DNA of 47,513 nt from Candidatus Omnitrophota bacterium. GTDB lineage: Bacteria > Omnitrophota > Gorgyraeia > Gygaellales > Profunditerraquicolaceae. The notes beneath the pieces were generated by a model. It saw only the letters and a list, made by a program, of their open reading frames with translations. It searched no databases and had not been told where the DNA came from. Both the position numbers and the translations under genes were made by a program. Location: assembly GCA_026387355.1 (NCBI GenBank), contig JAPLLW010000016.1, forward strand, positions 104,358 through 151,870, given 5' to 3'. Every line of letters begins with the position of its first letter. Position 1 is the stretch's first letter. Shown here in pieces: positions 321 through 42,000 of the stretch.

Positions 321-3300
321 TCGCTATGCGCATATCCGGCGTTTTCGAGGAATGGCACCCGACTGGCTGAACAACCGGCGCTTCTGCAACCGGGCAAAAA
401 GCACTAGGCGCGCGTACTCCTAATTTGGCCACACCTGCGTTAAGTCTTTCATACATCTCTCTCTCGCGCTGCGATAAAGCAAACTGCAAGAGATAATTGG
501 AGATGTTTTGATCCGGTTGTTCTGACCAGCGCTTAAAGGCTTTATAGGCTAAAACCGGGGAGAGCAAAATGTGGCAAAGACAACATACGAAATTATTCTC
601 GCTTTCTAAACCTGAGCGCAGGGCAATATATAACCCAATAAGAATAAACGGTATAAATAACAACGCCAGCCCCATCATGAGTGCCGAATCCGGCAGGCTA
701 AAGATTAGCCCGATATCGAAGCCTGCGAAGGAACCTCCGGTACATGAGGTTAACAACATGGTTAACAAACAGAGCACTAATACGGGAGAGATCTTTTGCA
801 GACAAGCTATTAACGACGCCTTTCCTGCTCCCCCTTCTTTTAAAAACCAATCTTCGCCACGCAGGTCAATAAACCCGTGAATCTGCCTCTCTGTCCTTCT
901 GTCATAAATCTCGAAAGATGGCACTAGCGACAAACCGTAGAATACAATTTGCATATCCGCATCGCTCGGGCTCAATGTACGCGAGCGGATCTGAAAGCGC
1001 GCCTCGGTGCGATCCGGGTCATCATGCAGACGGTAACGCAAATCATAATGCCTCTGCAACTCCTCGCGGTTAGCGTATTTACCTTCTACGATTATCACCA
1101 TCCCCTTCCTGAGAATAAATTCCTTAGGCCCATAAGTCTTAGTTTTCTGATCATAGGCATTAGGCACGCTTAAAACCCGAGCTTCATCTCCGGAGACGCG
1201 GAAATCATCAATAGCCTCAAACATTCTCAGTATCTCTTCGTTATCAAAGAATTCTTCTTCGTCGAGATAGTTTCTGCCTTCCCGAATCTTATTTGCCAAT
1301 TTTCCGACAAGTTGCTTTTCAGCCTCATTTAATGCCCTGCCCGTAACCAGCTTCTGTATTGCCAAACGCCAGGCCCTGTTCTTTAATAGCATATCTAGAG
1401 GTATGATAATAGAATCGATCCCGCGCTCCTTCAGATACCTAGCGACCTCTTCGGCAATTGTTGTTTTTCCTGAACCTGAGCCGCCGTCTACGGAGATAAC
1501 CGGCGTTGCTCCGAGAGTATTCCCAAAAACACCGGTTACCCGGTCGGCAATTACCCGGCACACACTCTCCAGCCTCATCCGAAAATATTTCTCCCGACTT
1601 TGCGTAACCGGTTTTCCTGTAAGAGGATCAATAGGAGGATGACCATAATAGCCCTTAGCCCTGGAAACTTCATCCACTATAGGCGGCACAAAAGCGCCAT
1701 CCTGGGTATTGCGGTAATATGTCGAGGAGACATTCAGGTCGATATCCGGATCCTTAACCAGCGCGATATCCAGGATATGCCTGCTCTTAAGCTCTTCTTT
1801 TGACTGGCGGGAGAACTCTTGAAGCTCTTCCAACGTTACCCTTGCTCCGTATTCACCTCTTTGGATAACAGTAAAAGTTATCCGGTGATTCGGATTGCTC
1901 CCAAAGCCGCACTTCTCAAACATTTCATAAGCCTGCCTGATATAATGGCGCATACGCTGTTCATTCTCTGCGCCAATAAGACAAAAAACATGCATCGCGC
2001 GATCAGCGTTCAGGGCCAGGAAACGATGCATCTCTTCCTGGCCTTCGATGTTGTTATTTTCCTCGCTTCCCAGGTCTGTGTAACGCAAAAACGGGAAAAG
2101 TTTCCTGATTGCTTCTTTTACCATATAATGCCTGTCTGCCACGCCTACACATTCACAGGCCAGAAGCTTTTTGTAACTAATCTCTCCCTGAACCCTGATA
2201 ACCACGGTATCAAGGTCCAACGCATTCATACACATAAGCGGAGGAAGCACATGGCCCCAGTTCATGGGATTACCGGTAATAGGAAAAAATCCTACGCGCA
2301 CAGGCCGATCAAGATCATGGAGCCTGGGGTCTTTTTCCTGCTCTGAAAACTTTCTGGTACTGACGTTGGCAAAAGGCGCGATCCTGCCTGAAGCGGCTTT
2401 CTGGCCTACCATCATGAATGTACTCTCCATCGCATGATAAAGCCGCGATAAGAAAGCTGCTTTCTTTTGCGCAACTGCTGCATCGTAACCCTTAATCGTA
2501 ACATCAATATGTTCCCATGAGGCATGCGCTGCCATACTAGCGATGAAATTACGGGTATCCTCCAGGGCCAAAGATTCATCCCTTATGCCCCTGGCTATAT
2601 GCGAGATAAGTTCGTGATATAGGATTGCTATCTGTTCATGTTCGGCTTGGCTCAATGCGAAGAAATACGGATAGATATAGACGATTCTTTGATCGATATT
2701 GCAGGCGGCGACATTACCGCAGGTAAGGCTTAAATCAGTGGTAATTACCAAACGCCAATTGTTTAACTGCGGAGGCGCCCGGCCTAAGATATTTTTTAAC
2801 TGCGCTAACCTGTCTCCTAAAACCTCATAATGATTTTCAATCAATGTATCGGGCTGACAAATATCGAATTCATTCACGGCTACATCAGCCAAGGTCCTAT
2901 TCGCTGCGTACTTTTCATCAATAACCTTCCGTGCTTCTTTCGGGACGGCAAGAGGATAGCTACAGCGAACAGGTGCCTGATTAAATAATTTATTTGGGTT
3001 CTCGCAAATATCCGAATTAAACGCTATAGCCTTTTCTAATAAAGATCTTGCCTTCCCATTTTTATCTTCCTTTAAACCGCCATTAGCCCTAGCCTCGTAA
3101 AATAGCTCACCTCTTTTTCCAGAATATTTCCTAATTAGGTCATTTATAGATACTTCAACTACTCCCCCTTGAAGCAATATCTCAACCATTTCCTTAACAA
3201 AATCAAAGTCAATTTTACGACTACGTAATCTAAAATCTTTTGTTAAATTACGCACAAGTCCGCGTACCGGCTCCTCAAAAGCACTAAAGATTTCTTGACA

Positions 3301-6300
3301 CCGAGCCACATCAGCATTTTCATATTTAGAAGCATAGCTTAATGACTCAAGGTCAAAAGCTCCAAGTAACCCTTTACTTTCCGCCATTTTTACATACGGG
3401 CTACCTGCCTGAACACGCAGGCTTCCAAGAATACGTGAATCTGTTTTAAACAACTCTGTTTCCTCTATAAACTCAATATTTTCTTTTAATTGCTCGAGGG
3501 TTGCAAAAGGATCGAAAAAAATAAAACCAACCTCTATTTCAATTCCTAACTCCTTAATAATCCGTAATGCCTGCCGGTTCTCATCAACCGTAACTCCTTT
3601 TGCGTATCTTTTTAATTGCCTTTCGCTACCCGACTCAATACCTAAATAGAAACGATGAACACGCCCTTTCTCATGTAACGCCCTACAAAGCTCTATTCGC
3701 TTGGCATTCTTGGCCGCGCTATCTTTAGCGTTATAAATATTATGCACCATTACAGAAATGTGGCTGATATAGACAGGCTGTTCCCCTAGTACGGAGAGCT
3801 CTTCATTCAACTGATTAACCGCATCCGCAAAGTCATTTATCCTTTTAGCCGTAGAATCAAAGCTCGCTTCATCCATCGGACCCATGAATTCAGAATCCAT
3901 AGAGAAAAATTTCTTAATCCCATTTTTGGCAAAATACCTGATTTCATCAATGATATTCTTAATGGGAAATGCCCTCCAGGAGATCTTGCATCCTTTCCCA
4001 AACTGTCCCCGGATTGAACAAAAAGTACAATGGCCCCATGGGCAGCCCCTGCTTGTTTCTAATCCATGCTGGAATCCGGCATTAATATCAAATAATTCTG
4101 GCGCAGTTGTCTCTGTAAAACAAGGATATAAATTCAAATCAACAACGTTTCTTGGCCCGCAAATAATTTGACCCCCGAGGTTCAACGCAACATTGTTAAT
4201 CCCACGATAGCACTCAAGATTCTTATAGTCATAAACACCCGGGATTTTTCCTGCGGCAATATCTCCGGCCTTTTTAACAATTTCTTCTAACGCGTATTCA
4301 CCTTCGCCCAAAACAGCAAGGACATTCATGAAAGATCCCATTTTTAAAACAGTTTCGTATCCGAAGGTTGAGCCAATATTTCCTAGAACAAACAATGGGC
4401 TGCGGTCACCCAAACGCTGGTTTAACATAGTAATAATTTTTTCTGCGGTTTTAAAAGTAAACCATTTAAGCGAGAGACCAACAATGACTGGCTGAGTGCA
4501 GACACTTCCGCTAACAACATCAACCACTTGATTTATGGCCTCTTGATATCGCTTTTCTTCTGTGCCCGTAGAAAAACCATTAAGGATTCTTTCCATATGG
4601 ATACAGCTTACATCTATCCCGGGAATAACACTGCGCAGGTAACCTGCAATAGTATAAATTCCTCCAGCTGGCTGACCGCGGCTTGAATGTTCAAGAGAAA
4701 CTAGATTAACCAATATCACCTTAGCAGTCTGCCGGGCCTGAGCAGGAACTGTGAGAGGATAGGTATGTAAGGCTCCGCCCAACAAATTGGTTAATCCTAC
4801 GGCCAAGAAACCAAAGATAAGAACAGAGATAATAAGCATCGGTAAAGGGATTAAAATTCCTAAAATATGAAATAAAATAACTGAATGCAACCCGAAGAAG
4901 CCAATAAATACTCCAATCCCAAAAGAAACGATATTTTTTGAAGAAATATACGAGGCTTTCCCGAGCAAACTGTCTATTTTCTTCCCCAGACTAAAATCTC
5001 CATTTTGATTTGCAAACAATACCCATAAAATGGACCATGGTAATTCCCACGCCGAGCTAGTTGAAACCATTGCCCCTGAAGCTACATCTCTGTTAAGGTT
5101 AAAATAAGTTATCGGACACCAAATGGGCCAGTTGATAAACATTGTCTTACGGAAATTTCCACTTCTTTCTGACCACATCTTTTTTACAATCGCCAGCGAA
5201 TTTAATGTAGATTTTCCATCTATCCGCCACTTTTTATACCCATCGTAAATCCCGGATACAACAAAAGTCCAAAGTACGGATATTACTGCCCCTGCTGTCT
5301 GGTCAACGAAAGACCTAAAGTATTTCCCTAGCTGTGTATCATTGGGGATTAGTTTTTGATACTCAGCATAAAATATATTCCAAATTATGCCGAAGACAAA
5401 ACCATATGCAAAAATGGCCATTCCGATTTTCGTAAAATCAAATCCTTTCTGCTTTCCTTTACGATATGCAGACCATTGCGATATTATCTCTCCAATGCCA
5501 AAATAAACCATAGTATTGCCCCAATAAGGCAATATCCCTAAGACTACCGCCGCCGGCTTATAAAAACAAACCAACGCTGCTAATACCACGGTAAGAACAA
5601 GCCAGAAAATAATAAATTTATCAAATCCTGCCGCTTTTTTAACTATTCTTTGCGTCATCCATTCCAAGGTATCCCCCATTGCCTCATCTTCATTGCGCAA
5701 GCCTTTAGTTATGTGGGATATAAGTTCGTGGTATAGAATCTCTAATTGTTTTGCTTCTGGAAGTTCGAAGAAATACGGATGGATAAAGACGGTCTTTGCA
5801 TCAATATCGCAAACTGCAACATATGATAGGCCTATTTTAGGATCGATGCCGAGATTTTTGGACGTAGCAACAGCGGTTATTTTAATAGTAAATTCCGGCG
5901 GACCGCGTATAAGCTGATTTAACCTTGAAAGCCTCTCCAAAATTATCTCTTCCCAATCTCTTAGGAAAGTGCTTTCTTTCGAAGTAAAAATATATTTATT
6001 ATCAGTTAAGTTAACATCGGCCTTAGCAATATTTGAACTTCCAAATTGCCTAACTACTGCTTCATGCTTTTCTTTTGGAACATTAAGAGGGTAATTATTT
6101 GTGGGGGCTTGAATTTCATCAGTAATGTTTCCTGCGGCAGAAAAGTTAGCGCTTTTTAGTGTGCTATCTTTATCCAAGCGCTCAGAAAGAGTCGCGGCAT
6201 TTTGCCTATCCAAGATCTCGTCTGAATCAAAAATAATTAAGTCAGCTCCTTCATTATCTATAAAAACAAGCTCAAATGTTGTATTTCCGCAATCTTTATG

Positions 6301-9300
6301 CTTTGCTAAAATTACCGGCAGCATAATCCTTTGAGGAGCAAGCCTTAATATATCGCTTAAATAATAGGAAACTCCTTGATATTCTCGTTTTTCTATTTTA
6401 TCTAAATTCTTTATTATTTTATCCGCGTCATATTTCTCTATCAAACCGCTTATCTCTTTTGCAATTTTTGCCTTTTCTTCATCAGTACCTTTTGCGCGCG
6501 CCTGCAACAATTCAATCATTTTATCTCTAAGCGCATGCTCGGCCTGAATAAAAGTTACAAATTTATTTTTGCCAGTTAACTCCTGCGCTTTTAAAGCAAG
6601 AACAATCCTGCTTACGAAATTCTTATCAATAAGGATTTCCTTGCAATCTTGAGAAGCATCGATTAATTGTTTTAATGCTCCCTCTATGGCTTTCCAATTC
6701 TCAACCTTTACACCTGTAATCTTACTCAAAACTTTACAAAATTCGCCAAAAATCGTCAGGCGATCTCTCGCCTCCGGCGCCCTCTGATATGCCCACGTAA
6801 CTCCTTTAAGAGCATCAAGAGAAATCGATACTTTACTTTTAGAATAGTATATATCCCTTAACATAATCCTGCCTTTTAGCCTCTCCAGAAACCGTGCTAA
6901 ACAATCAAACATATTAATGTTTTCATCATTTAACAGAGAGAAATTATCATCCGGCACGCTATTATCTGATTTAATGCTCTTAATAAATTCTTCTTTACTC
7001 TTAAACACTTGAGCTAGATTCACTAACTTGACAATAGCATACCCATCGTGAGTTATCCATATAGCGCCGCCGTTTTCCGTAGCATCCAAAGCGCCCACCT
7101 CTCCGCCCTTCTCAGCAAAAGTAGGATCCAATACTACTAATTTCTTTCCGGCTAATATCCTAATCTGATTATCCTGAATTTTATTATGTCCAACAACCAA
7201 CCGCTCTATGTTACCGCCAAATTCTGTTAAGATGGCATCTACTATCTTTTCTTTAGCAGCATCCTTTAGTACTACATAACCGCTGTCTTTAAGCGTTGTG
7301 TCAACAGAGCCATCATCAAGGCAAAATTCCTGCTTTAAAATGGGCAGCTTTTCAGACAAAACTTTGCCCTTATAAAGAAGGTCATAAATTAAATTAGATG
7401 GTTCGGGTGTATCTTTAGTCACATATTCTATGGCGATTCTTTTGTGCTCCCTTGCATACATAGGGCCATATTTACTATCTGCCAAGCGCGTCATCCATTC
7501 ATCTGCTGGTAAATAAATCTCGGTTGTTGTTGTAGGATCAAACCCGGCAAATAACATTCCAATTCCATTCCAGAAATCTTCCGGATGCGCTAAATCAGCT
7601 TCGCGCTCAAGGAATGCCTTGCGGATCCGGATTAACTCTCCATTTAATCTATCGTAGTAATACTTTACCTTACCCTTAGGAATAGAATTACCGAGTAAAT
7701 CTGCAAATCTGAATTCGTCATTGATTGGAGGCAGGGCATGCATAATCAGAATCTGCTTTTGAGCCTTGGAATTAACAACTCTTACTTTTGCCAACTTCGG
7801 AGTGCGCGGTATCTGTGGCTCTGGCTTAATAATCCGGTAAAACGGCGCTTTAAGAAAATGTCCGATAAGAGAACTCAAAGAACGGGGCCCTTTTTCAATA
7901 GCAATATTCTTATCAGTCAATACACCTGAGATAATTATTTGAATTGCTGACAAAAATTCTTTCTCTTCATCATTCATTAATACTAACTCGCTATTTACAA
8001 TGAAGTGCTTCTCAATAAATTTTTTTGCGGCATTAATCATCGCGGCTTCAGTGTGGGTCCAACTTATATTTTCTTTAATTGTTTCATCTGCCGCCCTTTT
8101 TTCATCTTTTGTCTTTTTCTTATCATTTTTTATTTCTCTTTGTGCCTTTAATTTCCAAAGCATTTCGGCAGTTAAAGGTACTTTATTATACTCACCCATT
8201 AAATCACTTAATGCTTGCTCTGTTACAGGCAATCTAAATAACTGTTGATTAGGATGAAAAGTGTAAACTATAACTTGCGCAAGCTCTTTCAATAAATTAT
8301 CACGCGCTTTGCTATCATTTTTGTAAAGCCTATTGTAGTAAAATTCGTAATACGCTTTTGTAAAAATATACTGGAATACTTTACCGGCAACCTGAGAATT
8401 AGACTTTCCTTTTGTATATTTCGCCCAACCTTTAGGGAGATTTTTTCTAAACTCAAGCGCTTTTTTGATAATATCCCCTAAACCAAGAGCGTTCAATAAA
8501 TCGTCATTTTCATAATTAAATGCCATGCGCAGATAAAGGGCGCTGAAACAAGGACTTACTCCCAAAATACAAGCGATTGCCCAAAGTTCATGATCAGCAG
8601 CAGTAAAATTAGTCACGAGTCTTAATAGCGGGAAAAGATTATGACCGCGGTCGCTTAAGTCGCCCACAATAACAAACGGATCATTAGGAAAAACGCGCAT
8701 AATCCTTAAAACGCCATCCAGCGCAGCATGGGTATCAGATGCCAATAAAATACCGCGAGGCAAAGCATTGGAATCTGCACCCCAGTTCTGCATATAGAAT
8801 TCACTTATTACTTCAAGTATTTGCGGCATCAACTTCACAGAATAGCTGTTTACCTTTTTATCCCCTTCTCCAATTACCTGCATTAAATCTCCGCAAACCA
8901 AAGTAACCGGACCTTTCTTTCCAACTAATGACTTTAAAATATCGGTTACAGTGAAATTAATCAGGCCACTGCGCCACTTACCTATATGCACATGTCCGGA
9001 CAGCCAATCCTTCCTACTTTCTACCTTTGCCTGAAGTTTTACTTCGCTCGAATTAAACCTAATGTCATTGACAACTACGAAGTCAAAGATTGAAGACAAA
9101 TCTCCTCCAGGAATTTCTTTTCTCACAATTTCTTCGATAATCCCTACAAAAAAATCGAAATATTCTTTATCAGAAATACCTTCGGTTTCAGCATCTTTTA
9201 TCGGGTTCAACATCAATATGCGTGGAGTATGCTTTGCCTTAGCCAAAGCTCTGACTACCCCCTCTATCATCAAATGAACAATTACGCTGGTAATCTGCGA

Positions 9301-12300
9301 GCCCGGGCCAAAGATAATCAGGCCTTTTTTATGCGCCCTCTTGGCTTTTCTATTAGCCTCATCTAAATCCTCGATACTTTTAATTACATCCGGATTAGCT
9401 TTAGGGAGATATTTTGCAGGAACAACTTCTTTTCTATTTTTTATAACCCTCTCAATATCTTTTCTTTGAGCAAAAAACACATTCTCTATAGGCGACTCAT
9501 TAGGATTTTTTCCATTTCCGATATGCTGGGTAATTTCCTCCTGCCCGTAAAGGTAACTTTTATCTTTTAATTGAGTCACTAATTCAAGGCTTTCTGTGCT
9601 GCAACCAGTAAGCATAATCTGACTTAATGCTGATGGATCGGCGCGGGCAATCCTGGAGAACTCTTCTAATATGCTCTTCCAGGGACCTTCAGTTTTTCCT
9701 TTACCCATCTTTATTAATAACGCATAAATAATCATATTTTTTACAGAGTGCCGAAAATGACGGCTAATACCTTTGTCTGGAGACTGAATTTTTTCCTTTG
9801 CGGCTTTTTTATTTGCTCCTAAAGACTTATCAAATAACAACTCCTTATTTACTATATTTGGGTTAGTAGAAGCGTCGATTATTTCAGCTAATTCCATAAG
9901 CATATTAAGAAAATCTCCAAATTCTTGCTTTGTTGTGAGACTATTATTATCTTTTCTGCGCTCTTCATCATTAATATAAATATAACGCAGATATTCCACT
10001 ACCTCTGTAAATGTCGTAAATCCTTGGTCTCTCTCAGTAAAATTCGCTACCTTGCCTTCAAATTGCACATACCATCTTGTGAAACGGGCATTCATCAAAT
10101 CTTTTATGAAGCTACAATCAGAACAACTGATTATATTACTGGTAATATCTCCGAGTGCTGGCAAATCTTCATCCCCTGCCATGGCGCGCAGAACTCCGGA
10201 GCTACTGGGGTTATCATAGATCCTTGAAAGAAGTTCTCCGGCATTATTAAAAAATACCCCTCCATCAAGCTGTGTGATAACGCGTATTGGATTATACATA
10301 TCTTTTAAATAATTTTTGTGGAATTTAGCGCCAGCGGCTCCGGAAAAAATCAACGCATTAGGTAAATTCTTAATTTTCGAATCTGCATTTATTCTTGACT
10401 GAGACATTGCGCCAACCCCTACAAACACCAGCATATCGTGTATTGCCTCATCTTCATCGCGCAAGCCTTTAGTTATGTGGGATATAAGTTCGTGGTATAG
10501 AATCTCTAATTGTTTTGCTTCAGAAAGCGTGAAGAAGTAAGGATGGATAAAAACAGTCTTGGCATTGATGTCACACGAGGCAACATGGGTCTGGCAGAGA
10601 TTAACTCCTGTAGTGATAACTAGTCTCCAATGGGATAACTCTGGAGGAGCACGGCCGAGTAGCTGCTCTAGTTGCGCTAATCTGTCTTTTAATACCTGGT
10701 AGTGGTTCTCAATATATTGTGCCTGGCGATATTCTAAGTTTAATCCGGCTACTTCTACTTGAGTAAAGGTATCTTCTCCTATGCCGTGCTTTACTGCCAA
10801 GGCCCTTGCTGCTTCTTTGGCTTCAGCAGGTATGGGGAGAGGGTAATGATTAGACTGAACAAGTTGTGATGGACCGGAGACCTCTTTCGGCAATACAAAT
10901 GAGCCCAGGGCAAGCTCTCTCAGCATAGCCAATACTTTTTTCTCATTACAACTCCTGCCGTAAGTCCGCGCTTCAGGCAACCAGATGGCAGCTGGCTCTT
11001 TAGAAACCGCAGGGTCTCCTGTTTTATACCAATACAGATTATATATCTGAAGGTAACGCGCTTTATTGCTTGCATCAGGCTCGTATAAGAAGAATACCTC
11101 ATCTCCATCCTCGGTATCTAAGATAACTGCACTAATTTCTCCGTTAAAAAAGTTACCGGTGTAAATATCCCCTATACTTTCTACTTCGTTTACTGCGCTT
11201 GGCGGGGATGGATTATTATTAGGGTGGTTGTGAAGAGATATACACTTAAACCCTTCACTTTGAGATGAAAACAACTCCTTTGTGGATAAATCATGCGCAC
11301 TAATCCAGGTTGTAACGGCATAATCGATATTGATAAAATCATCCTTTAATTGTTCGATGCAGCGTAATTTCTCCCTGTCCAATTCATAACGCTTGCTTGT
11401 AGCAACAGAGAACAAACTTATGGTGGATTCATTTAATTGCTCTACCAGATCTTCCGCTTGTTCACGCAAATCTACAGTCAGCTTACGCAATATATCTTCT
11501 CTATCCGGAGAATCTTTTAGGTTTGATAACCTCTCAAAAATCATCTTTAATATATAGATGGTACGCGCAGGTTTTGTAAAATAATTCACTTCCTCGGTCA
11601 CAACAAGCTCGTCCTTTGACCTTGCCCGAATAATCGCAAATTTATTTTCATCGTGCGGGCATTCTAACTTAACAACAACCCCATTTTTTTGGAAAAGCTT
11701 ACCTTCTAATTCAACGTTTAACTTACGCGCTAACCGCACCATATCAAAAAGCTGATCCCTTATTACGAAAGGCACAATCAGGGTCTGCCCTTTTTTGCTA
11801 AAGACTATATTCGACTTTTGCGACGCGTCCAATGAAGAAGCGAGCAGGGAATTATATAGCGCCCTAAAATGCTCTAGTAAAATACTTAAGAACTTCTCCG
11901 TTCCTTTTACCAGGTCACCAAACCAAATAACCTTCTTCATGTTATCGCCTTGACGATTATCAACAGAAATTACCCAGAGCCTCTCTTCTTTTTCCGTCAT
12001 CCAAGCGACTATCTTATCGTTGCCTTCCACAATTTCATCTCCGATATAAATAACCAGGTCGTGCAATTTCAAAAGATCCTGAATTGATAACTGCTTACTT
12101 GCGTCCAATCTTACAAATCCTATAGTAGTGCTACCACTAATCTCATACCTTAAAGTAGCTATCCCTCTTTTACTTAATCTATTTATTATCTCATCGGCAA
12201 TCTTTTTGCGGGTTAACCTTGCAGGATTATAGGTAGCGGCGATAGCAAAATCTTTCTCAAATCTGTATTGCTCCTTGTCTATATTTCCGTAAGGACTGTA

Positions 12301-30009: not shown

Positions 30010-30033
30010 AACCCAAGAAATTAACTTTATCGC
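29981..30033 (-). other. Frame junction between the two giant frames
   Basis: The upstream frame ends in codons for YYSQVA and then TAG; the overlapping frame, one base later, reads FTIAKSPSADPEDRLACLF and then thousands more codons. Removing one T from the sense-strand run GATTTTTAC (A5 at 30001-30005 on the plus strand) joins them seamlessly as NFLGFDF-TIAKSPSADPEDR. A +1 slip at GCC-TAG-C would also join them. The shift direction (one extra base) fits a homopolymer sequencing or assembly error, a recent inactivating indel, or programmed +1 frameshifting; sequence alone cannot decide. Confidence 0.75.
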
Positions 30034-33000
30034 TCATCATCATTAATCTATAGACTCCTGTCAAAAGCAGCTGCCTAAGAACATCATTCCTCTTAACTTC
30101 TTGCTCTTGATGAGGAAGGTAAATATCTATCTCTTCGTGCACCTGGCCTACAGAGGTCATCTGCGGCTCAGTTCCTGAGACGCGTACCACTGCAAACATT
30201 CCTCTTTCTGGATTCTCTATGGCCATATCCGAATCATTCTTTAGGCCGGGAACAGGACGGAATCCTTGAACGCCAACAATGCTCATAAGATCGTCCTGTA
30301 TTTCACGGAATGTCTTACGCATATCTTCAAGGGATGTGCAAGGAACGCGCAGGTCGGGAGTTTCAGCGTAGAATTTAATTCCCTCTAGGGTCTTTTCGGC
30401 GGATTTTTTGTTTTTGCAGAATACCGAAGCAAATAGCCCTGAGATATAGACCGAATCGTCAAATTTAAAATCCCAACGCGGGAAGAAATGCCCGGTTTTC
30501 TCAAAACCGTAAACACCGCTTCTATCTTTTAGTTTCTGAATAATATTAGTATAACCTGCAAAACCCAAATGGTAAACACATCCGAGCCCCTCAACAATCT
30601 CTTTGACGCAAAAATTATTACGTTCGTCCCCTATGATCACTGCCCCGGGGAATTGCTGTGCTATCTCCTTACAGGTAACTGCGCCAATAAAATCTCCTGC
30701 CAACTCCACATAGTGAAATGGCCAACCCTCTGATTCCACCTTGCGCAATCTTAACACCACAAAGATACGGTCAACATCTGTATCATAACCAAACCCTATA
30801 TCCGCATCCACCTCTTGCATCTTAGCCCTAAGCTGCAATCTGTTTTCATCCAAGGTCGGATCAGGAAGATGGGCAGGGAAGGTTCCGTTTGGATCTGCGT
30901 TTAGATAGGTAATATCCATACCCATCCTCTCTAATTGGCCTTCAACATATTTCTTGGCCATACCATTACCACAATCAACTACAGCCTTAAGCCCTAAGTA
31001 TAGTTGAGGCAATTTTACAGGCTTAAACTTATCCAGCGCCTCTAAAACGCGATAAGGCTGCAATGCGCTCATACAATCCCTGTCTACATTATCCTTAAAT
31101 ACCTCTTCTTCCCATTCGGCAATCTTGGTGCATAATAAAGTTGTTTTTATATCATTAATCATCTGGTCAATAACAGTCGCCCCATTAACCGCGGGTAAGC
31201 GGGTTAAAGAGCCATAACGGTTATTGTTAAGTTTAGTGAACTTGCGCTGATTGGCTTCATAACGGATAACAAAGGTCCCTTTTAACGGCAAAGCATTCTC
31301 CAGTGCGTGCTCAAGCGGTAAATCTTTATCCGGGCCGATAAGAAACTTGTCTCCGGCCCACCTTACTTCTGAGTGAGATGCGGTATTCATACACGCTATA
31401 TTAGCGCTAAGTAAAGGAAGGGCTTCCAGGAGGGCAGGGGTTGAAGTCTGGCCTATATCTACTACATCAATGCCGCTTGTTAAGAAAGCGCGGATGGCTG
31501 CCTCGCTTAATACAGGAATATGCGTTATAGGTTGCAATCCTAACCCCATCCTCTGCACATTCAATTCTTCTAAAGAACGCAAAGTATATTCATTCATCGG
31601 CCCGGAAGCTAAGCGGTCATCGCGGGCAACAACTGCCAGATAATTACTACTGCGCTTTATGCCAAACCTCGAAGAGATCTCCATCTGGCGCCTATGTACA
31701 TCCGCAAAATAACTTTCATTGGCCCCCTTAGCTCTTAATATCTTCCTCTGTTTACTCTCTACCTCAACCATAAGAGAAACTACTACTCGAGTCATATAAT
31801 ACTGCACTTTATCAGTTATATTCTGAGAGATAGACTGGGTATCGGCACGCAAAATCAATTCCGGTATAGCTACCCCTCTTATGTCGTAACTCCTGAATAT
31901 GTTAGGATCTATAAAAATACGCCTATAAGTGATGCGGCCGTTCCTGCCTATTTCTTTCTTCCCGGTTGCATCCATTACCGGATCTGCCTCTTTTACCCTA
32001 TCAATACCTGCATAACGCAAATGCATATCTTCTTCGCGGTCAAGGCTTGCGAAATACTCTAAAGTCGCCTCTGCGACTTTAAGGCTAACGCCGGCAAATT
32101 GCGCATAAGAATCAACGGTAAATGCCTTGTCATGCAATATCATATCAATATAGGCTGCCTTCATCTTCTGGGTGCCCGGGAAATAACGGTTAACGTGATC
32201 AATGAACATAGCGCTACTTGTTCGCGGATAATCCTCCTTGGAACTAATCTTATGCCTAAGAGCACTTTGAAGTATAAGGTTATATTTAACCCCTCCTAAA
32301 TCAGCAACATGATAAGAACCTGCCAAATCTTCATCTTCTATCCCATATGCCAAGTGCGCAACCAGCTCATGATAAAGAACCTCTAATTGCAGACTGCGTG
32401 CGATATTTATAAAGTGAGGATGGATAAAGATGGTATTTTCTGGATAACTAACGGAAGCCTTCTGCTTTAGATTTACAGCAGCAACTTGACCTGCGGTTAA
32501 ACCGAGATTTGCTGTAAATACCAAATCCCATGCAAAAGGAACATATACATGAAGCCTGCTTAAATTTTCAAGAAGATCCTGCATAACTTCGAATTCTTGA
32601 TCTGCGTTTTGCTCAGCATCAAGCAACGTCAGGCCTTCTGCCTTAAAAGCCTTATCCTGATATGTAGCCCAATTTTGCTGGATCGCCTGACTAATATTTA
32701 AATGATAAGTGTTCGGACGGATCTTTCTAAGTAATCTTCCGATAGCCCTATAGTCATCTCCTATGCGCAATGCATTTACTTCTCTGCCGTAAGCGCATAC
32801 TGCTAAATGATTGATCCCTTTTACCCCTAAAGCAGAAGCATCTCCTCCGCCAGGAAAATATTCATCTCCAAAATGATAAACTAGGCGCCTGTCTAATTTA
32901 TGCGATTGGATAAAACTCTCTATTGCGCTAGCTTTATTTACGCCTTTTCTGTTAATATTAATACTGGTTGTTCCGCCAGGAATCATATCATACTTATCTG

Positions 33001-36000
33001 CATTAGGACCTAGGGCAGCTTTTATCTTGTTAATAATAGCCATACGTACTTCTGCCCTACCTACGCCTTCCGGGATTGGGGTAATCGTTAATTCTATGCC
33101 ATCTCTTAAATCCATCCAAGGTACATTTATCTCGGCAGTGAGCTTAAGCTTCTCCTTTGCCATCTGGTCGTCGATTAGGCGAGGTTCCAATAAACGACGC
33201 CCATGACTATCCAAATCATATCCAAATACAAACAGCTTATGTTTTTCACCGCTCATCCAAGGCATAGTAAAACCAATATGCTTATAGCGCGCTGCAAAAG
33301 CACCGTCCTTACCCATCTGCGATCTATATTGATTCAATAGACGAATTCTTACCTCTTCACTTATATTTAAAGCTTCGCTGCTAAATTTATTATTAACAAT
33401 CTGGATTAATGCATTTCTTATTATTTCAAGATCATCCGCTGAAATTGAATACGCGGCATTATGTTCTTCGTCGAGTTTCGCCTGACCCCTTTCATTAAAC
33501 TCAAATTTCATTGCTCCTAAAGAAGTATACAAGAAGCAATTCTTTATTGCTTCAGGCCTACCCAATTCCACAAGCCGTTTGTAAATGGGCGCAACTACGC
33601 GCGGGTGTTGCATACCAAAAGACTGCGCGGTAAGAAATACATTTCTTTCTTTGCGCATCAGGCTAAAACAAATATCATCTCTTAATTCTGTGTATTTTCC
33701 ATCATCAAGCGTTGCCCTCTGATCGGATAACTCAAATAAAGTTCCGTCTATATCAAATATGCGCGCGCCGGAAGAAATTATTTCTGCTCCATGTTTAAGC
33801 ATATCATCAGAAATGCGCGAGAAATTAGCCTCGACTTGAACATTTCTCTGCAAAACTTTCTCTGCCCGATGGGCTATCCTGGGCACATCAAAACCAGGCT
33901 CATCCTGAACATAGATTGGATGCTCACCTCGTTCTGTAATCTGGCCGATAATTGCAGCGTCTATATCTTTAGCATCTAATAACTCTAATATCTTACGCGC
34001 CAAGGCCTCGGGCGCTGTAATTAACAGTCCTCCAGAAGTCTGCGCATCATAAAGTATGGATACCGGAGCTTCATGCGCGCTGTCATCCACTGACACATCA
34101 AGCCCAACAAGATGAGAAAAATAATGCCTATTGCGATTAACGCTACAAGGATATGCCATTAAGTAAAATTCTTCCGAGCCGGGGTATAACGGAACCCGAT
34201 TAAGCCATAATTGCGCTCCCATTTTTCTTGGCTCAAGCATCTCATTCAAATGCCCGATAAGGCTAAACCCGGTAACATCAGTACTAGCGCTTGCCCCTGT
34301 TTCTCTTAGCACCTCGGAGGCTTTGTCGCTTGGCTCAACCAAGCAGCTTAACATGTGTCGATAAGCATCTGCTTCTTTAGCAGTCAAATCCAGGGCTTTA
34401 AGCACCGCAAAACTAGATACAACCCCTGAACCAATAGGTTTGGTAAGAATAATCCAATCGCCTTTATTAACCGTGGAATTACTAAGATACTTATCATGAT
34501 GGCAGATTCCATACATTAATGCGCCGTAAAAAAGATCCTGATTCGGCACAGAATATATACCTAGGTGTTCGCTAGAAATACGCGCAATCTCGGATTTACC
34601 GGCATTCACTATTTTGCTGACTACGCCCTTTTCAATAAGCGAAGGTGTAAACATAACATCAACTGTCCCCTTAGGGAGAATGCCTTTTGCGTATAAGTCG
34701 CTGGCAGCGTGATCAATGGCAATGCGGCTATAGAGCCTTGCTGAGTTAACAATCGGCTTAATAATATCTACGGTAAAGGCAATCGAACGCTCTTCGTCCA
34801 GCCGATATAGTATAACGTCATCTTTAACGTGCACCTGGCCAAAATTATTTAAAGGAAGCTTGCTTATAGCGCAAGAAAGAATCTGGTCCAATTTATCAGG
34901 AGGGTATTTAGCTGCGCACCCTTGAGTGCGATGTGTTGCAATAAGCTTATCTTCTAAAAATGTTATCTCTCCATTATTAGAAGACGCGCTTGGCTCATCA
35001 ATCAAAACAGGTACCTCGGAAGCGGGAATCACCTCCACCAAGGCCATGGTATAAATTACATTCGGGTTATCTACAGTATGGCCTCCTGCAATCGGGATGC
35101 CAATGGCATCAGTTGATTCAACCATGGCGCGCAAGAAGTCCTGCAGGTTCTTAATATCTACCTCAGGGCTTGTCGGAAGACCAAGGATGCTCATCGCAAA
35201 AAGCGGCTTACGGTTCTTTTCAGTTATTACTCTAGCTATATTCTTGACAAATACCCTTGCCTTCTCAGCAATGGTAGCGTTAATATCATCCGGATCAACT
35301 GATACTGTTGCGAAAGTAAAACGTAGTCCTGTCTTTTGATCTACTGCCCCATAAAATTCTCTAATGTTATATTCCGGTTGCAACCTTGCCTTATCGCATA
35401 AATCCAGCAATGCTTCTCTCCACTGCGCATCCGGCACAATTCCGACTGCGGCTAATTTTTCCATATTATCCGTAATCGCCCTTAAGATATGCGCCTGGGA
35501 AAGTAAGAATCTCTGTGTATAAGCATCACCGGATCTCTGGTCTAATCCTAAAAGATGGTGTGATTGGATTTCATCGAAAAGTAAGGAAGTAAAGAAGTAG
35601 CTGCATAGTTTTGATTCAAGATTGGTATTAACAATTACTGGATGCAAGCGCACTACATTTGCTTTATCAGATTCGCTATAAATATACTCGGCGATAATCC
35701 TGCCCTGCGCAGTTGGGCTTGTCTCGGGAGTGATATAGACAATCAGCTCTTCTTTTTCCGGAGGGGCATGCGCAAGATACGGGCGAAGAATATCAAACCA
35801 GCTTGATAGGCGGTCTTCTTGTGTAGATGACAAGTTCCCCTCGTTTATGCTCATCTTAATCCAAGCATCCTTGATAATAAGTTTTAACTTAACAGGAGCA
35901 AAAGTATCATATTTATCGGTAGTGACCGAGAAAGGATAGTGACGAGAAACAGGTAAAGTTGGTTTAAGAGTAATCGCATTTGTTATTTTGTGGACTAAAT

Positions 36001-39000
36001 CAGCTACATTTACACTCTTTAAGTTAACTAAATAAAGGCTCTTATTAAAGTTCTGATGATATCGTGCAAGATAAGCAAATATTAATTTAAGTTTATTAGC
36101 TTCTGAAGTATTTGTCTTGGATTCATCAACAAGTCTCAAAAATGCCTCTACCTGCTCAACTGAAGCCCCTAATTTTTTAACTCCGGATACAAATGCATCC
36201 AGGGTAGCCCCTGAAGTATTATATTCTAAAAGCAACGGTAATAAATCCGTAAACAAATGATGAAGTGACGCAATCTCCTGACACATTCCGCGCTTGATTG
36301 GTTCGCCATTTAAACCATTGATTAAGATCTCATTCCTTTTTAATAATAGGAAGAGGTTAAAAAGAACAACGCTCTGTCTTTCTTTATCCGAAAGAGTAAC
36401 ATCGCTAAAAATACGCTCTGATAAACCTATGCCGCGATCATCATAACCTGCTATAAAGTTTTTAGGAGTAAAGATATTCAGTTTAAGGTTATCCTGATTT
36501 TTGATAAGACCCCTTGCTTGCATCCAATTTAATGCCTGGAAGATAACTTGCTGGCCCGTTAGAATCTTTTCGTCAACTGAAGAGAAATATATTCCGCAGG
36601 CAAGTTTGGCAGTTAATGATTCCAGGGAATCATTGCCTTCAGTGCTGACATTGGTAATATTCTCCTCGGGAATAAGATAAGTATCAATAACGAAGTCTGC
36701 GGCTTTACGAATAGTATCAGTGCGATAACGCATGATGATATTGTGGTAAGGATGATACTGTAAGAAGTACTCCAACCTCTCTTTATCGTCTCCATTTAAG
36801 AGATACTCCATTCTGCGTCTTTCAATAGACTCGATATATACGGTGAAATCTCCTTTAGGCAGGGCCTCTGGGACGTACAACTCAATCACCGTGCCTTCAA
36901 CTAGGATAACTTTGTATTTTCCAGAAGATATCAACGCCTCGTAATCCCGGTAAAAAGCCTGGCTGTCATAATACCAGAGGTCCGGCCGCTTATAATTATT
37001 CACCTCAATAAGCGCAATCTCTGACTTCGCAACAGATCCGGATAAGCCTTCCTTAAGCAGAGTGATGGAATGGGACTTACGATTACCCGGCCTGCCATCA
37101 ATCCTTACAATTACCGGTGTACTCGGCTGAACCTTTAATTTTGCCAAGATCTTATCGCGTAATTGATGAATTCCGGTTTTTAATGATACCGCTTTTCTCT
37201 GCGGCATAACAAAATCAGCATAAGGATGAATACTAAATTTACCGTTAGAGTATTCATTGCGCCTAAAGAAATGCAATTTATAAGCATCATTCTTTACACG
37301 AAGTCCTAATGCCACTTCTAATTCTTCTACCCTGCGGATATAACGGGAAACCCCAAATAACTTATCCCAGAGAATCCTGAGTGAGTTATAAAAAGGAGCT
37401 AGCTGCGGTAGAGGTAAGATCATGCAGTATATTTCCGTATTTAATTTTGGCTTATTTATTCTTCCGTTGGCAAAATACCATCCTTCATTGCGCTCCACTG
37501 CGGCAAATAAATCCCTTAAGGCTTCGGCGTATCTATATACCAAAGCATGGTCTTTCCCCCAGTAGAGCTTATCCAAATCTAAATTAATGCTTTGTTTTAT
37601 CTGCGCTAAGGCAAGCCTTAAGTTTTTCTCTCTTATTGCTTTGATAACTCTTAATAAGTCGCTAGAACCAATCTCTCTAGCAGTCTGCCATAGCGCCTGC
37701 CTGCCTATGCTTGTTAAATTATCTCTTAAATGAGCAAAGTAATTTTCTTTAATCAACTGATTTTGCAGGAATATAACCTTGTTAATATCAAATTGACAAC
37801 CGGTAAATCTATGCATTAATAACTTATATATGCCTGGCCTCGGTAAGACTTCTACTCCTAACTCTTCTTCAATAGCCTGGGCCTCTTTTATATCATCTTC
37901 ATTAAGGGCATAAAGTTTACCTAAGAAGGCGTATTTTCTACTCTGTAGATATTCGAATGCCGCCATATATGCACCGCCTAGGGCAACCGCATAATCTATA
38001 TCAGTATCGCTCAAGCTTATTTTTAAGTTTATGCCTGCAAATTCCTCTAGCAGCGTCTGCTCAATAGCCTGTATAATAATCTTGCCTGCCTTGCCTTCAA
38101 GATTCTTACCTGAAATAATCACTTGTTCATTACCGAAGATACGCGCAAGCTTAACAAACCCGCGCGCAAGATACTGACCGCTTAGAGTAATGATTTTCTT
38201 TGCATCTTCGGGAGTAGAAGATTTTAACAAATCCATTATCTCGTGATAGCTTAACTTTCTTCCTAAAATTTCCTCGGCAATAACTTCGAGTGCCTCTGCT
38301 GTACCATAGCTGCGTAAGGTCCCTCTTACTCCGGTGTGCGGATTAACATGCGCCTTAGGTGAACGATTAATTATAATCTGCCTTATCTCTTCGAAATTAT
38401 CAGTAATATTACCGTTGGCATCAATCATCTTGCCTGCCATTGCCGTGCCCAGCTTAACAACTAAAGCATTGGTAAGTCCGGTTGCAAATCTTTCTCCGAG
38501 CGCTGCCACCTTACCATCCATCTCCACAGAAACAGCAATGCCGCCGAGCCTAGAGGATAAATCATCTTTAAGGTTAGTTACCTTAGCAAAATCTTCATTA
38601 GACAACGACCTGGTTACGTTTGCCCGGGTTAAAATACGGCCATCCTTCATCATGCCAACTGTACCAATACCAATGCCCTGAATCTGCTTTAAATCAATAC
38701 CTGCATCTGCAGCGGTTGAGCGCACAAACTGTTCAATACCTTCTACGAATTGCACATAAGTAGTAGGACGCGCCCAGTCCTTATTGCCGCGCTCAGGATT
38801 CCAAAGTATCTTGCTTGCCTTAGCCACAGTCTCGCTACCCTTCACTATTACGCAACGGGTATAAGTACTTCCTATATTCATACCAATAAATAAAGCTTCC
38901 TGCGGAAGATTAGGCAGTTCTTTTAAATCCCAACGTAGCCTCTCCGGAACATCTAAATAGGCAACTGAACTCTCAGCTCTCTCAAACTCTAAGCACTTAC

Positions 39001-42000
39001 CAAAGAGTAGAACCACCCTCTCACCTATCATTCCCTGATTATCAATTCTAACAAAAGCCTTTACAACTTCTTCAAAATAAAAAGCGTTGCAACCGGAGAT
39101 TATTATGCGCTGGGCAAAATTATTTACTAAGAGATCATAAATCTGCACAGCAATCTCTTCTATGCGCTCTGCGGAGCTTAATTGAGCAGACAGTTCTAAC
39201 TCAAATGTGCTCCTGCCAATATCTGCCTTATCAAAAGTAACCTCGATAGTTTCGTTATTTTCTGGCATTACAAAACCTAATAACCGCAAGATCTCATCCT
39301 GCGCGTTTTCAAAATTACCATTAATTATAATGTTAGCTCCGGCATCAATCAGGCGCTGCCTGGATAAAGCATCCTTAGCAATACCTATAGCAACCGCTCC
39401 CACATTAACCGCTGCCTGCATATCGCTAACTCGGTCTCCAAACTTAACTATTTGGCCATCAACAAGCCCGAGCTCTGCCTTCATACTACTCATTACCTTG
39501 GTCTTAAATGGCTCGATGCGAGTATCTGCTTCTTTACCTTCGGGATGAACGCAAATCAAATCATCAAATAAATCGGTTAATCCAAATGCCTCTGCCATAA
39601 GTCGGATTTTCTGAATATAGGCCCGAGAAAGAGCAATTACCTTAACTTCGGACTGTCTTTTAAACAAAGCTATAAGCTCCTTGACTCCGGGGATAAGTTT
39701 GCCCTGAGTTTCAACTAAAATCTTGAATTCTTTAATATACTCATCCACATACTCCTGTTCACTTCTTAAACCGGTTCTACCTTCAGCCTGGGCCTTGGCC
39801 ATTGCCCAACGCAATACGCCTGGTAAGCCCGCCGGGATAGGAATATCTTTTTCATTTGCTGCGTATCCAAGAATATCTGTAATAATTTTCTTTACAATCT
39901 GCTTAGCTGAGAGGTCCTCTACTGTAGTTCCATCCCAATCAAAAACAATTAGCTTTCTTTGAACTTGAGCAAACGGACGAACTGTTTCAATGCGCGGCAT
40001 ATCTTCTAGCCCGGCAACGCATCTCTTTGTCTCTTCGGTAAGGCTGCCACCAAAACTAAACAATTTTATTATCTCATCTTGAATGCCTTCGAAGTTTCCG
40101 TTGATAATTACATGCGCTCCGGCATCAATCAGGCGCTGTCTTGTACCTGCATCCTTAGCAATACCTATTGCAAGCGCGCCAACATTATTAGCTGCCTGCA
40201 TATCAGCAACCCTATCTCCAAGTTTAATTATCTGGCCGTCACGAAGAGCTAACCTCTTCTTAAGATTACCCATCTCTTTAGTCTTAAGCTTTGCGATATC
40301 AATATCTTTTGTATCTCCGGGAATTAAACAAATAATACTATCAAATGCATCGCTAAGGCCTAAGACTTCGGCCTGCATAAGTTTTTCCTGGATATATGCC
40401 CGCGAAATAGCAATCACGCTTACTCCGAGCTGCTTTCTAAATAAGGCGATTAATTCTTTAACCCCTCCTACAACCCTGGCCTCGTCCTTTACAAGCGGTG
40501 TTAAGTCTTTAACATATTGTATCGCGTAATCATATTCGCTCTTTAAACCGGCCTTGCCTTCTGCCTGAGCTTTTGCTATTGCCCAACGTATTGTTCCGGG
40601 CACGCCGCCATCTGCAGGAAGTTCTAAATCATCCACATCTCTACCAAGAATATTTCTAGCAATACCTTTTGCTGTATCTCTCCACAAAAGAGCCTGCATG
40701 GTAGTATCATCCCAATCAAAAACAACTAACTTTACTTCTACAGGATTAAACTTACGCACTACTTCAATACGCGGTAATGGCTTATTGTTGTTCTGCTCTT
40801 TATTGGGGAATAATTCTTCCGTATCTTTCATTGCATCTATATCGTCACGCACGCCTTTAAGAATATGTGATATGAGTTCATGGTAAAGTATCTCTAATTG
40901 TTTTGTTTCTGGAAGTTCGAAGAAGTAAGGATGGATAAATACAGTCCTAGCATCGATGCTGCAGGCAGCGACCATAGCATTGGTAAGATTTAAATCAGTA
41001 GTAATAACTAATCTCCAGTTGGATAGCTCAGGAGGGCCGCGGCCAAACAAATTCTCTAGCTGCGCTAATCTCTCACCTAAAATCTCTTGGTGATTCTCAA
41101 AGAATGCGCCGAGCTGATTAAGGCTAAAGTTGCTTACGGTTATATCGGTTAAGACCCTGCTAGTACCATACTTCTCTTCAATCTCCTGACGGGAATTAGC
41201 AGGAACGCGCAGAGGATAATTAGCAGGCTGGGATTTTGCTGCGGCGATCTTACCATATTCATCAAGCAGAAACTTACCTACGCCCGCTAATCCATCCATT
41301 CTTTCTTTATTCGTAACTTCCACATAAAGTTTTACTGCCGGCTCAGTTCCTGATGGCCTAAGCATAATCCAATCTCCTGTCGCAAAGACAATCTTTACCC
41401 CATCTATGGTAATCAAATCAACAACCGGGATATTCCAAATAGCTTTAACTCTATTGGCAACCGGGGCTTCAGTTTTAGCTACACCTCTTGCTAAAGCTTC
41501 ATTTGTTTCGCTAACCAATTCTGCAACACCTGCTTTAATACTCTCTTTCCCCCTAACAGTCGTGGTAGTAATCACAAATGCCTTACCGACTTCTTCTTCA
41601 ATCTGCTTCTTGTAAGCACCTAAAGACTTTCCGGTACGGCTGACAATCCACAAGGCAGCAAGGCTAATAGCAATACCATCATCCCAGGATTTCATAAAAG
41701 GCCCGATAGCCACATGAGCGCTCTCTTCTCCGGCAACCAAAAATTCTTTTCCTGCATCTACTGCAAGTTCGGCAAACCATTTGAACCCTACCGGAACTTC
41801 AATAATTTCGAGGCCAAGGTGACTTGCTACGACATTGACTAAATTACTAGTAGCTACGGTTTTACCTACCGCACCCTTGAAACCGAGCGCCTTGTTTAAG
41901 AAATAAGCTAACAGCGGGATCAAGTCGTTAGCGGTAATTAAATCACCGCCAAAATCAACTGTTCCAAAACGGTCTGCGTCTCCGTCAGTACCTAACCCGA

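Follow-up and report, generated by a model that had tools for sequence, protein, structure and literature searches.

Giant open reading frames (ORFs) have been described in the phylum Omnitrophota (Seymour et al. 2023, PMC10066038) and have also been treated by West-Roberts et al. 2023 (as cited in PMC12057145). The passages of the former study devoted to them point to adhesion and carbohydrate degradation, with few annotated domains, and mention neither strings of central metabolic enzymes nor a repeated peptidase-like module (PMC10066038). Our literature searches turned up giant Omnitrophota ORFs but nothing describing a metabolic polyenzyme that carries repeats of a peptidase-like module; an earlier mention in West-Roberts et al. 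is possible. Here, we analyzed a 47,513-base stretch of a draft Omnitrophota genome of 36 contigs and 1.59 Mb (contig C14, positions 104358-151870), referred to below as the window. It is nearly filled by two open frames on the minus strand, on which all window features given below lie: frame A (29984-47512; 5,843 amino acids, with an open 5' end where the contig stops) and frame B (1-30009; 10,003 amino acids in the window and 11,663 in the contig), which overlaps the end of A in another reading frame. These giant frames are themselves of an already known kind, resembling those described by Seymour et al. in phylum, size class and membrane helices (PMC10066038), and the 35 kb of frame B exceed the 20-kb size class of Omnitrophota giant ORF proteins. 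What sets the locus apart is a small repeated module, with a predicted fold close to that of minimal zinc metallopeptidases, which recurs between enzyme domains along both frames and which, as we tentatively propose, processes the chain locally into enzyme blocks.

The first-pass annotation of this stretch described a unit, YPLPVP ... VFIHPYFF ... YHELISH, recurring between enzyme domains, and the unit, which begins more generally with YPLxVP, is real, extending over window positions 2545-41218. Eleven copies lie in the window, not twelve as was claimed; the twelfth is on another contig (C17) of the same genome. With the Y of YPL taken as the start and a point just beyond a conserved DT as the end, the copies are 115-148 residues long, a wider span than the original estimate of about 135-145. 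Frame A holds module A1 (40811-41218; YPLRVP ... HELISH, with the HExxxH motif at 40865-40882) and the divergent A2 (32300-32707; YHLNIS ... HELVAH). Frame B holds B1 (29317-29760; YPLPVP ... HELISH), B2 (26443-26787; YPLPLS ... HELISH), a short form that lacks about 20 residues between YPLPLS and the next helix, B3 (22978-23385; YPLSVP ... HELISH), B4 (19837-20268; YPLAVP ... HELVSH), B5 (17587-18018; YPLPVP ... HELISH), B6 (14956-15378; YPLPIP ... HELISH), B7 (10423-10845; YPLPIP ... HELISH), B8 (5659-6093; YPLNVP ... HELISH), which borders a membrane region on its following side, and B9 (2545-2958; YPLAVP ... HELISH). The ten other window copies are 29-68% identical to the first. Modules do sit between enzyme domains, as proposed; "nearly always between two different" ones is too strong, several junctions being bare. 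The module has no convincing family match in Pfam, NCBIfam or PHROGs: the best library match, phrog_10840, was found for 6 of 11 members (best E 0.0032) and carries no function, and PilJ_C matches one member only (E 0.0094). Thus, the module defines a domain family that neither Pfam nor NCBIfam covers. A viral origin was also considered and rejected, the scan of viral contigs with one pattern having returned 3 stretches and no relatives.

The structures of B3 and of the short B2 were predicted with AlphaFold2 at high confidence (B3: predicted local distance difference test score 94.3, predicted template modeling score 0.89, 41 aligned copies; B2: 94.7 and 0.88, 39 copies). In the models, the motif falls in one long helix that follows a strand, and a second helix starts near a conserved D-E-x-x-A-x-x-D-T. 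In Foldseek searches, the best matches were selecase (E 0.033) and abylysin (E 0.045) for B3, and the same two proteins for B2 (E 0.0054 and 0.0096; probability 1.00); the nine best Protein Data Bank matches of B3 span E 0.033-0.6 and the eight best of B2 E 0.0054-0.05, and all are entries of just three proteins, selecase (MJ1213), abylysin and jannalysin, which we take to be the minigluzincins. Structural comparison with VIA agrees: selecase (4qhi_A) aligns with B3 at Z 7.8 and a root-mean-square deviation (rmsd) of 3.7 over 95 residues, and with B2 at Z 8.9, rmsd 3.6, over 94, whereas the corresponding values for abylysin are Z 7.2, rmsd 3.0, over 87 residues and Z 8.8, rmsd 2.9, over 87. 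Deuterolysin, Wss1, AsaP1, Spartan and others follow below, and the first 20 VIA rows for both models are proteins that we take to be zinc peptidases or zincin-like metal hydrolases. Residues 1-46 of B3, which include YPLxVP, lie outside the coverage of the best fold matches. A plain sequence profile also brings up selecase (4qhj_A), in a one-gap alignment that includes its motif and at E 0.34, which is not significant by itself; ranked above it (E 0.13) is a PRESAN protein that matches elsewhere. Because zinc peptidases or zincin-like hydrolases fill the first 20 rows and the profile aligns selecase via its motif, we trust the fold match, which lends moderate support to a predicted zincin core in the module, built of strands including one at the edge, the motif helix and a further helix.

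Eleven copies had been credited with HExxH; in fact, YHELISH reads H-E-x-x-x-H, and a search for HE..H in both ORFs gave none. The longer motif does not in our analysis disqualify a peptidase, as HExxxH is used by the tubulin metallocarboxypeptidases (PMC10499314), by TldD (PMC5810440) and by dipeptidyl peptidase III (DPP III; PMC5805324). According to the sections of these papers on the metal site, both histidines of TldD bind the metal, with the helix distorted to fit the extra residue (PMC5810440), and one DPP III naturally carries HEISH (PMC5805324). Neither DPP III nor TldD appears among the Foldseek and VIA matches listed for B2 and B3, which is uninformative.

All 12 copies of the genome (11 in the window and one on C17) keep HExxxH. 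So do 52 of 56 unique copies that cover the motif, none having another length and four having lost a motif residue; this set is biased, most of its loci having been found by patterns that include YHEL[IV]SHI. In the closer set, itself partly found by motif, H119 (54 of 57), E120 (54 of 57) and H124 (52 of 55) are among the most conserved columns, and the acidic residues of the following helix are E132 in 47 of 55 and D138 in 49 of 54 copies. A further set, drawn from an unbiased search and with a few members in common with the set of 56, comprises 51 of the 92 places found by whole-module similarity. Twenty of them rank in the upper or middle part of that list; of the other 31, 27 belong to its weakest 31. 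Sixteen of the 20 stronger matches have HExxxH, one has R for the first histidine, and three, all in genome G223, end just before the motif helix. HExxH stands at the motif position in four distant relatives (L123, L125, L129 and L132; HELTH, HEIHH, HERIH and HEQIH), three of which, by eye, continue with a G..DE-like stretch as the module does. Judged from these sequences, the module family spans both motif lengths, and the presence of HExxH in distant relatives supports zincin descent. The zincin-like fold that had been proposed holds up in the predicted models of B2 and B3, whose best matches are zinc peptidases; overall, the zincin idea stands because the predicted fold matches small zinc metallopeptidases, some distant relatives carry HExxH and HExxxH is known in other peptidases. 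Two sets of degenerate copies were also seen. In L104, L105 and L107 (contig C46 of G223), and also in L120 (G393), the copies stop before the HExxxH helix and continue into a stretch with SSSPA or NSSPA; this type is a putative non-catalytic form with another linker, present three times in one genome. In L083 (1401-2207), which the contig end cuts, a signal-peptide-like start is followed by a degenerate module lacking the metal motif and then by a stretch that by eye resembles inositol monophosphatase.

The N-terminal arm of the module is strongly over-represented. In 210,071 residues of long frames from this genome and its relatives, a set that includes some overlapping stretches, YPLx[VI]P occurs 30 times versus 0.16 expected from composition, and among the 50 copies that cover the arm, 23 have strict YPLxVP and 47 a loose form. 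The same residues contain 39 loose matches, 32 of them ahead of a module as recognized by regular expression. The 7 others are two modules missed by that expression (L077, L085), two that depart from the YPLx[VI]P form (L080 and the C17 frame P2) and three that stand alone, one in L051 and two, unmentioned in the first-pass annotation, in frame B: YPLPVP at 12787-12804, which precedes a HAD-like block (by eye), and YPLTVP at 4744-4761, which precedes the radical SAM block. With so few module-free occurrences, we rejected the idea that YPLxVP is a free linker found all along the chains. The arm is kept where the next 20-30 module residues are gone, as in B2 and in 3 of 4 modules of genome G010. 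The suggestion that YPLPVP is a cleavage or docking site thus gains some support, short of proof, from its retention in shortened modules and at the three module-free places; this pattern fits a role of its own for YPLxVP, as a candidate site of cleavage or docking.

Module DNA, as judged from sequence identity, is copied within genomes. In L049, a 449-bp stretch running from YPLPVP to DTMGFV is the same in two modules whose flanks are unrelated, and B6 and B7 share 92% DNA identity over 418 columns of the module, outside which they do not match. B9 and its C17 paralogue are equal in 345 of 360 DNA columns that run to the end of the radical SAM block and on through about 24 residues of the module, then show about two thirds identity over the rest of the module, followed by unrelated sequence; by this pattern, a crossover or conversion is placed inside the module. 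Elsewhere, within-genome pairs reach 70% over 370 columns (L046) and 90% over 176 (L042), and a module pair in L063 gave no DNA match. On the module tree, which has many weak forks and in which near-copies contribute to clustering, the copies of this genome group together (5 label changes, against 10.1 after shuffling, with so low a count in 0 of 500 shuffles). The NG86 ratio of non-synonymous to synonymous substitution rates (dN/dS) is 0.23-0.31 for the three closest pairs (B6/B7 0.23, B9/C17 0.31). Because the copies share sequence, the modules may also serve as crossover points for the exchange of enzyme blocks.

The family appears confined to Omnitrophota in the data scanned: all 30 named module loci, recovered with two peptide patterns from genome contigs of 84,980 species (very near genomes perhaps being left out), are Omnitrophota records. 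At E 1e-5, 46 of the 384 genomes sampled from the phylum match the module (35 of the 249 good ones), as do 9 of 58 near relatives at E 1e-3; the modules are shared across genera. Most matches are in frames of thousands of amino acids, up to 70,450; frames under 1,500 amino acids account for 8 of 92 places, and the one examined (G185) runs off its contig. Enzyme domains accompany the module in these frames: starch synthase, UDPGP, CoaE, radical SAM, DUF1152, CofD and GHMP kinase in G010; starch synthase, NUDIX, PPDK and PGI in L046; PMM and HAD in L063; methyltransferase, the PRPP synthetase N-domain and PGM in L058; and methyltransferase in L042. Four segments of such loci (L042:171-3821, L063:3575-6205, L063:6206-8329 and L058:2-865) gave no Pfam match at 0.001. 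Blocks common to G010 and the window stand in different order; the DUF1152 block plus module is 46% identical, the CofD region 26-32%, the block after the glucose-6-phosphate isomerase 41% and the phosphorylase block 56%, and one nucleotidyltransferase-kinase block of G010 matches both such blocks of frame B (62 and 67%). L063:2-3574 has, inside a module-bearing chain, a Pfam match to Peptidase_M54 (archaemetzincin).

The enzyme domains of the window were placed with Pfam on scanned segments at a hit threshold of 0.001. Frame A encodes, from its start, DUF4922 (45125-45382), an alcohol dehydrogenase-like ADH_N domain (43586-43825), phosphoglucomutase/phosphomannomutase (PGM/PMM) domains I-IV (41285-42820) with SASHNP, DGDADR and RPSGTEP, a HAD hydrolase (39398-39955, the better of two stretches), a ROK family domain (38012-38887), an AIRS plus AIRS_C pair (33920-34822) that we read as SelD-like, a HAD-3 stretch and a second PGM/PMM domain set (30383-31510), in which TASHSE takes the place of SASHNP. 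The first 1,191 residues of frame B (26437-30009) gave no Pfam match at this threshold, and the nucleotidyltransferase-like and P-loop kinase-like block within them (27088-28815) was named by eye from TGNPINQGH and GGSGSGKTT. There follow glucose-6-phosphate isomerase (PF06560; 25711-26148), NUDIX (22477-22650), DUF1152 (19054-19716), a partial carbohydrate phosphorylase match (16144-16494), phosphofructokinase (PFK; 13129-13983) with GGGPA, GGDDT and PKTMDND, CofD (9025-10218), radical SAM (3466-4059) and, by sequence match and motifs, a second nucleotidyltransferase-like and P-loop kinase-like block (790-2571); beyond the window, frame B continues with CoaE. A Metallophos match was below its Pfam cut-off. 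The motifs found in PFK and the PGMs are ones that we take to be catalytic. On C17 (L019), of whose 20,993-residue frame 8,473 residues were scanned, PPDK parts and NuoE/NuoF-like domains were found, the latter being 2Fe-2S thioredoxin, FMN-binding and 4Fe-4S domains, alongside HEAT repeats and an M50-like match below its cut-off.

Standalone genes for all five enzyme types tested, PFK (two genes), phosphorylase, CoaE, glucose-6-phosphate isomerase and PGM, are present elsewhere in the genome, ruling out that the giant chain holds the sole copies of these enzymes in the cell. The standalone PFK, CoaE and PGM score above the embedded copies, the embedded isomerase (PF06560) belongs to another family than the standalone one, and the embedded phosphorylase fell below the search cut. 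Given the standalone genes and, for PFK, CoaE and PGM, their higher scores, the giant chain is best seen as carrying a second, divergent enzyme set.

Hydropathy analysis finds 6 membrane segments in A and about 30 in B. Those of A form three hairpins within its first 602 residues (47207-47332, 46433-46582 and 45707-45850), with none later; B has one hairpin at residues 988-1033 (26935-27072) and few segments until about residue 8140. Within 20 residues on each side, the K/R versus D/E counts of the A hairpins are 4/0 and 5/2, 3/2 and 6/1, and 4/1 and 5/3, and all three loops are without charge, so that, by the positive-inside rule, the enzyme blocks beside these hairpins probably face the cytosol. 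The B hairpin, with near-neutral flanks (3/3 and 3/2) and one K in its loop, leaves topology undecided. The hairpins at 46433-46582 and 45707-45850 share FFALSNIAWxPVA, each after a similar repeated block.

Several features concern the ends of the frames. Frames A and B overlap by about 50 nucleotides (29981-30033) and B has no clear start; the frame break may reflect a genuine frameshift or an error in sequencing, or B may be a gene of its own. In the same genome (G000), C17 has frames of 20,993 and 10,977 amino acids, together about 31,970, divided by one in-frame TAG (C17:42441-42443). A further frame on this contig (C17:1-7260; 2,420 residues) opens with a signal-peptide-like sequence, contains long N/S/T/P-rich repeats and is cut off by the contig end. 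The gene encoding A and B may begin with this frame; a direct junction with frame A, plausible in orientation, is not claimed, since no exact overlap of 15-299 bases links the contig ends. A similar signal-peptide-like N-terminus begins a 57,756-residue frame of G010 (C2:22777), located after genes that by eye resemble Tad/type II secretion parts. Pro/Tyr-rich tails were seen at the C-terminus of the C17 frame P2 and in frames of L047 and L053, with GSWPGTYNF common to P2 and L047, and are perhaps a common end of such giant proteins.

Thus, we propose that the chain is a giant, membrane-tethered string of metabolic enzymes, in which each window module is a predicted small zinc metallopeptidase of the minigluzincin type with a catalytic helix one residue longer. 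Two histidines and an acidic residue of the next helix (E132 or D138) would bind zinc, and the glutamate would activate water. The module would act locally and cut the chain nearby, the likeliest place being the extended YPLxVP arm, either of the module itself or of a neighboring copy, or the residues beside that arm. In this way, blocks of one to several enzymes might be freed from the membrane-anchored chain; many intact copies per chain suit such local action, whereas a trans-acting protease would need one. We favor this local processing only tentatively, because a number of observations weigh against it. Modules are not at every enzyme junction and there is no one-enzyme-one-module rule: residues 2237-4933 of A contain two HAD stretches, ROK, AIRS/AIRS_C and HAD-3 with no module between them, PFK, HAD-like and HIT-like blocks (the last two by eye) all lie between modules B6 and B7, and G024 has PFK in a 7,890-residue frame without a module match. 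The modules thus do not separate single enzymes, as had been suggested, and processing would at best yield multi-enzyme blocks, which, given the standalone copies of five enzyme types, are not obviously needed. No Foldseek E value is below 0.001, the selecase Z scores span 7.8-8.9 where VIA warns that values under 8 may mean a shared arrangement only, and within-genome copying alone can keep copies alike. Furthermore, the 31 mostly weak matches, classified by regular expression near the expected place, comprise 10 with HExxxH, 4 with HExxH and 17 with neither. Since HExxxH is kept by all 12 own copies and by 16 of the 20 stronger but 10 of the 31 mostly weak matches, dead copies are common in distant relatives, in many of which the module can at most connect. 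These losses lower the odds of processing and raise those of a non-proteolytic connector, that is, a zincin-derived folded spacer or docking domain between enzyme blocks, with a metal site that is structural or leftover. Such a connector, which would also suit the three G223 copies without the motif helix, the variable length of the N-terminal half of the module and the irregular placement, is unlikely in our estimate, though it deserves serious consideration; it sits poorly with H119, E120 and H124 ranking among the most conserved columns of the partly motif-selected closer set, and with the intact motif of all own copies, which a mere spacer need not keep.

The evidence of copying raises a different prospect, that the module is an in-frame mobile domain, copied between junctions like a selfish insert, whose peptidase activity, if any, only limits harm or is a relic. 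The L049 identity with unrelated flanks, the module-limited similarity of B6 and B7 and the clustering of own copies on the tree would all follow; however, gene conversion between modules already in place gives an equal pattern, the pairing of DUF1152 with a module is seen in two genera, at 46% identity over 859 columns, so that some positions are old, and no recombinase or target-site mark speaks for mobility, no in-depth search for either having been made. We consider this improbable, and decidedly so the delivery of the enzymes, in which a predatory or host-attached cell would present the chain to another cell, with modules releasing enzymes or digesting proteins there in the manner of MARTX toxins. 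Delivery would make sense of the signal-peptide-like N-termini of the G010 giant frame and the C17 2,420-residue frame, of the Tad-like genes (by eye) ahead of the former and of the discussion of Omnitrophota giant ORFs as symbiosis or predation factors in parts of the literature (PMC10066038); yet domains of the ATP, SAM, FMN and Fe-S types and the hairpin flanks suit the cytosol, and the signal-peptide-bearing C17 frame shares no overlap with the A/B contig ends. That separate genes were wrongly joined in assembly or gene calling is hardly credible: the draft state of the genome, the A/B frame break and the in-frame TAG on C17 leave room for it, but long module-bearing frames of up to 70,450 residues recur in other genomes, as do the enzymes in the loci scanned, and dN/dS is well under 1. 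Local processing, then, is the reading that we carry forward. In its fullest form, a second set of central-metabolism enzymes made as a membrane-anchored polyprotein many thousand residues long and freed in blocks by a new HExxxH metallopeptidase family that is repeated along the chain and whose DNA copies double as recombination joints in the shuffling of enzymes, the proposal is possible, if somewhat doubtful.

The repeated peptidase-like module gives a direct handle on the function and intactness of Omnitrophota giant-gene products: read as a protease, it predicts cleavage, names YPLxVP as candidate site and offers a point-mutation control. Among known proteins, the minigluzincins selecase, abylysin and jannalysin come closest, being the best fold matches of B2 and B3, of similar size, with the motif helix after a strand and a weak profile match. 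They are archaeal and short, with Protein Data Bank chains of 104-112 residues and, in selecase, HELLH, whereas the module has HExxxH, an added N-terminal YPLxVP arm and a place inside long chains. With DPP III (M49), TldD and the tubulin metallocarboxypeptidases, the module shares the six-residue metal motif (PMC5805324, PMC5810440, PMC10499314). These are larger proteins, and only MATCAP is among the listed fold matches (rank 50, Z 4.2, rmsd 3.8, 89 aligned). As described for M49 in the relevant parts of PMC5805324, DPP III is a two-domain enzyme of about 550-740 residues with HEXXGH in most members, unlike the 115-148-residue module, which has S or A before the last histidine and G in few relatives. 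Finally, self-processing polyproteins and MARTX toxins build a protease domain into a multi-domain chain and free its parts, as is proposed for the module. RTX repeats and a cysteine protease domain had no Pfam match among the scanned segments, no search having been aimed at them. The Omnitrophota chain, protease-like by predicted fold and motif only, differs from both in its 11 copies in the window and its cargo of metabolic enzymes. If correct, our proposal would extend polyprotein processing to the metabolic enzymes of a cellular organism; even without cleavage, it would describe a module family copied end to end between unrelated enzymes.

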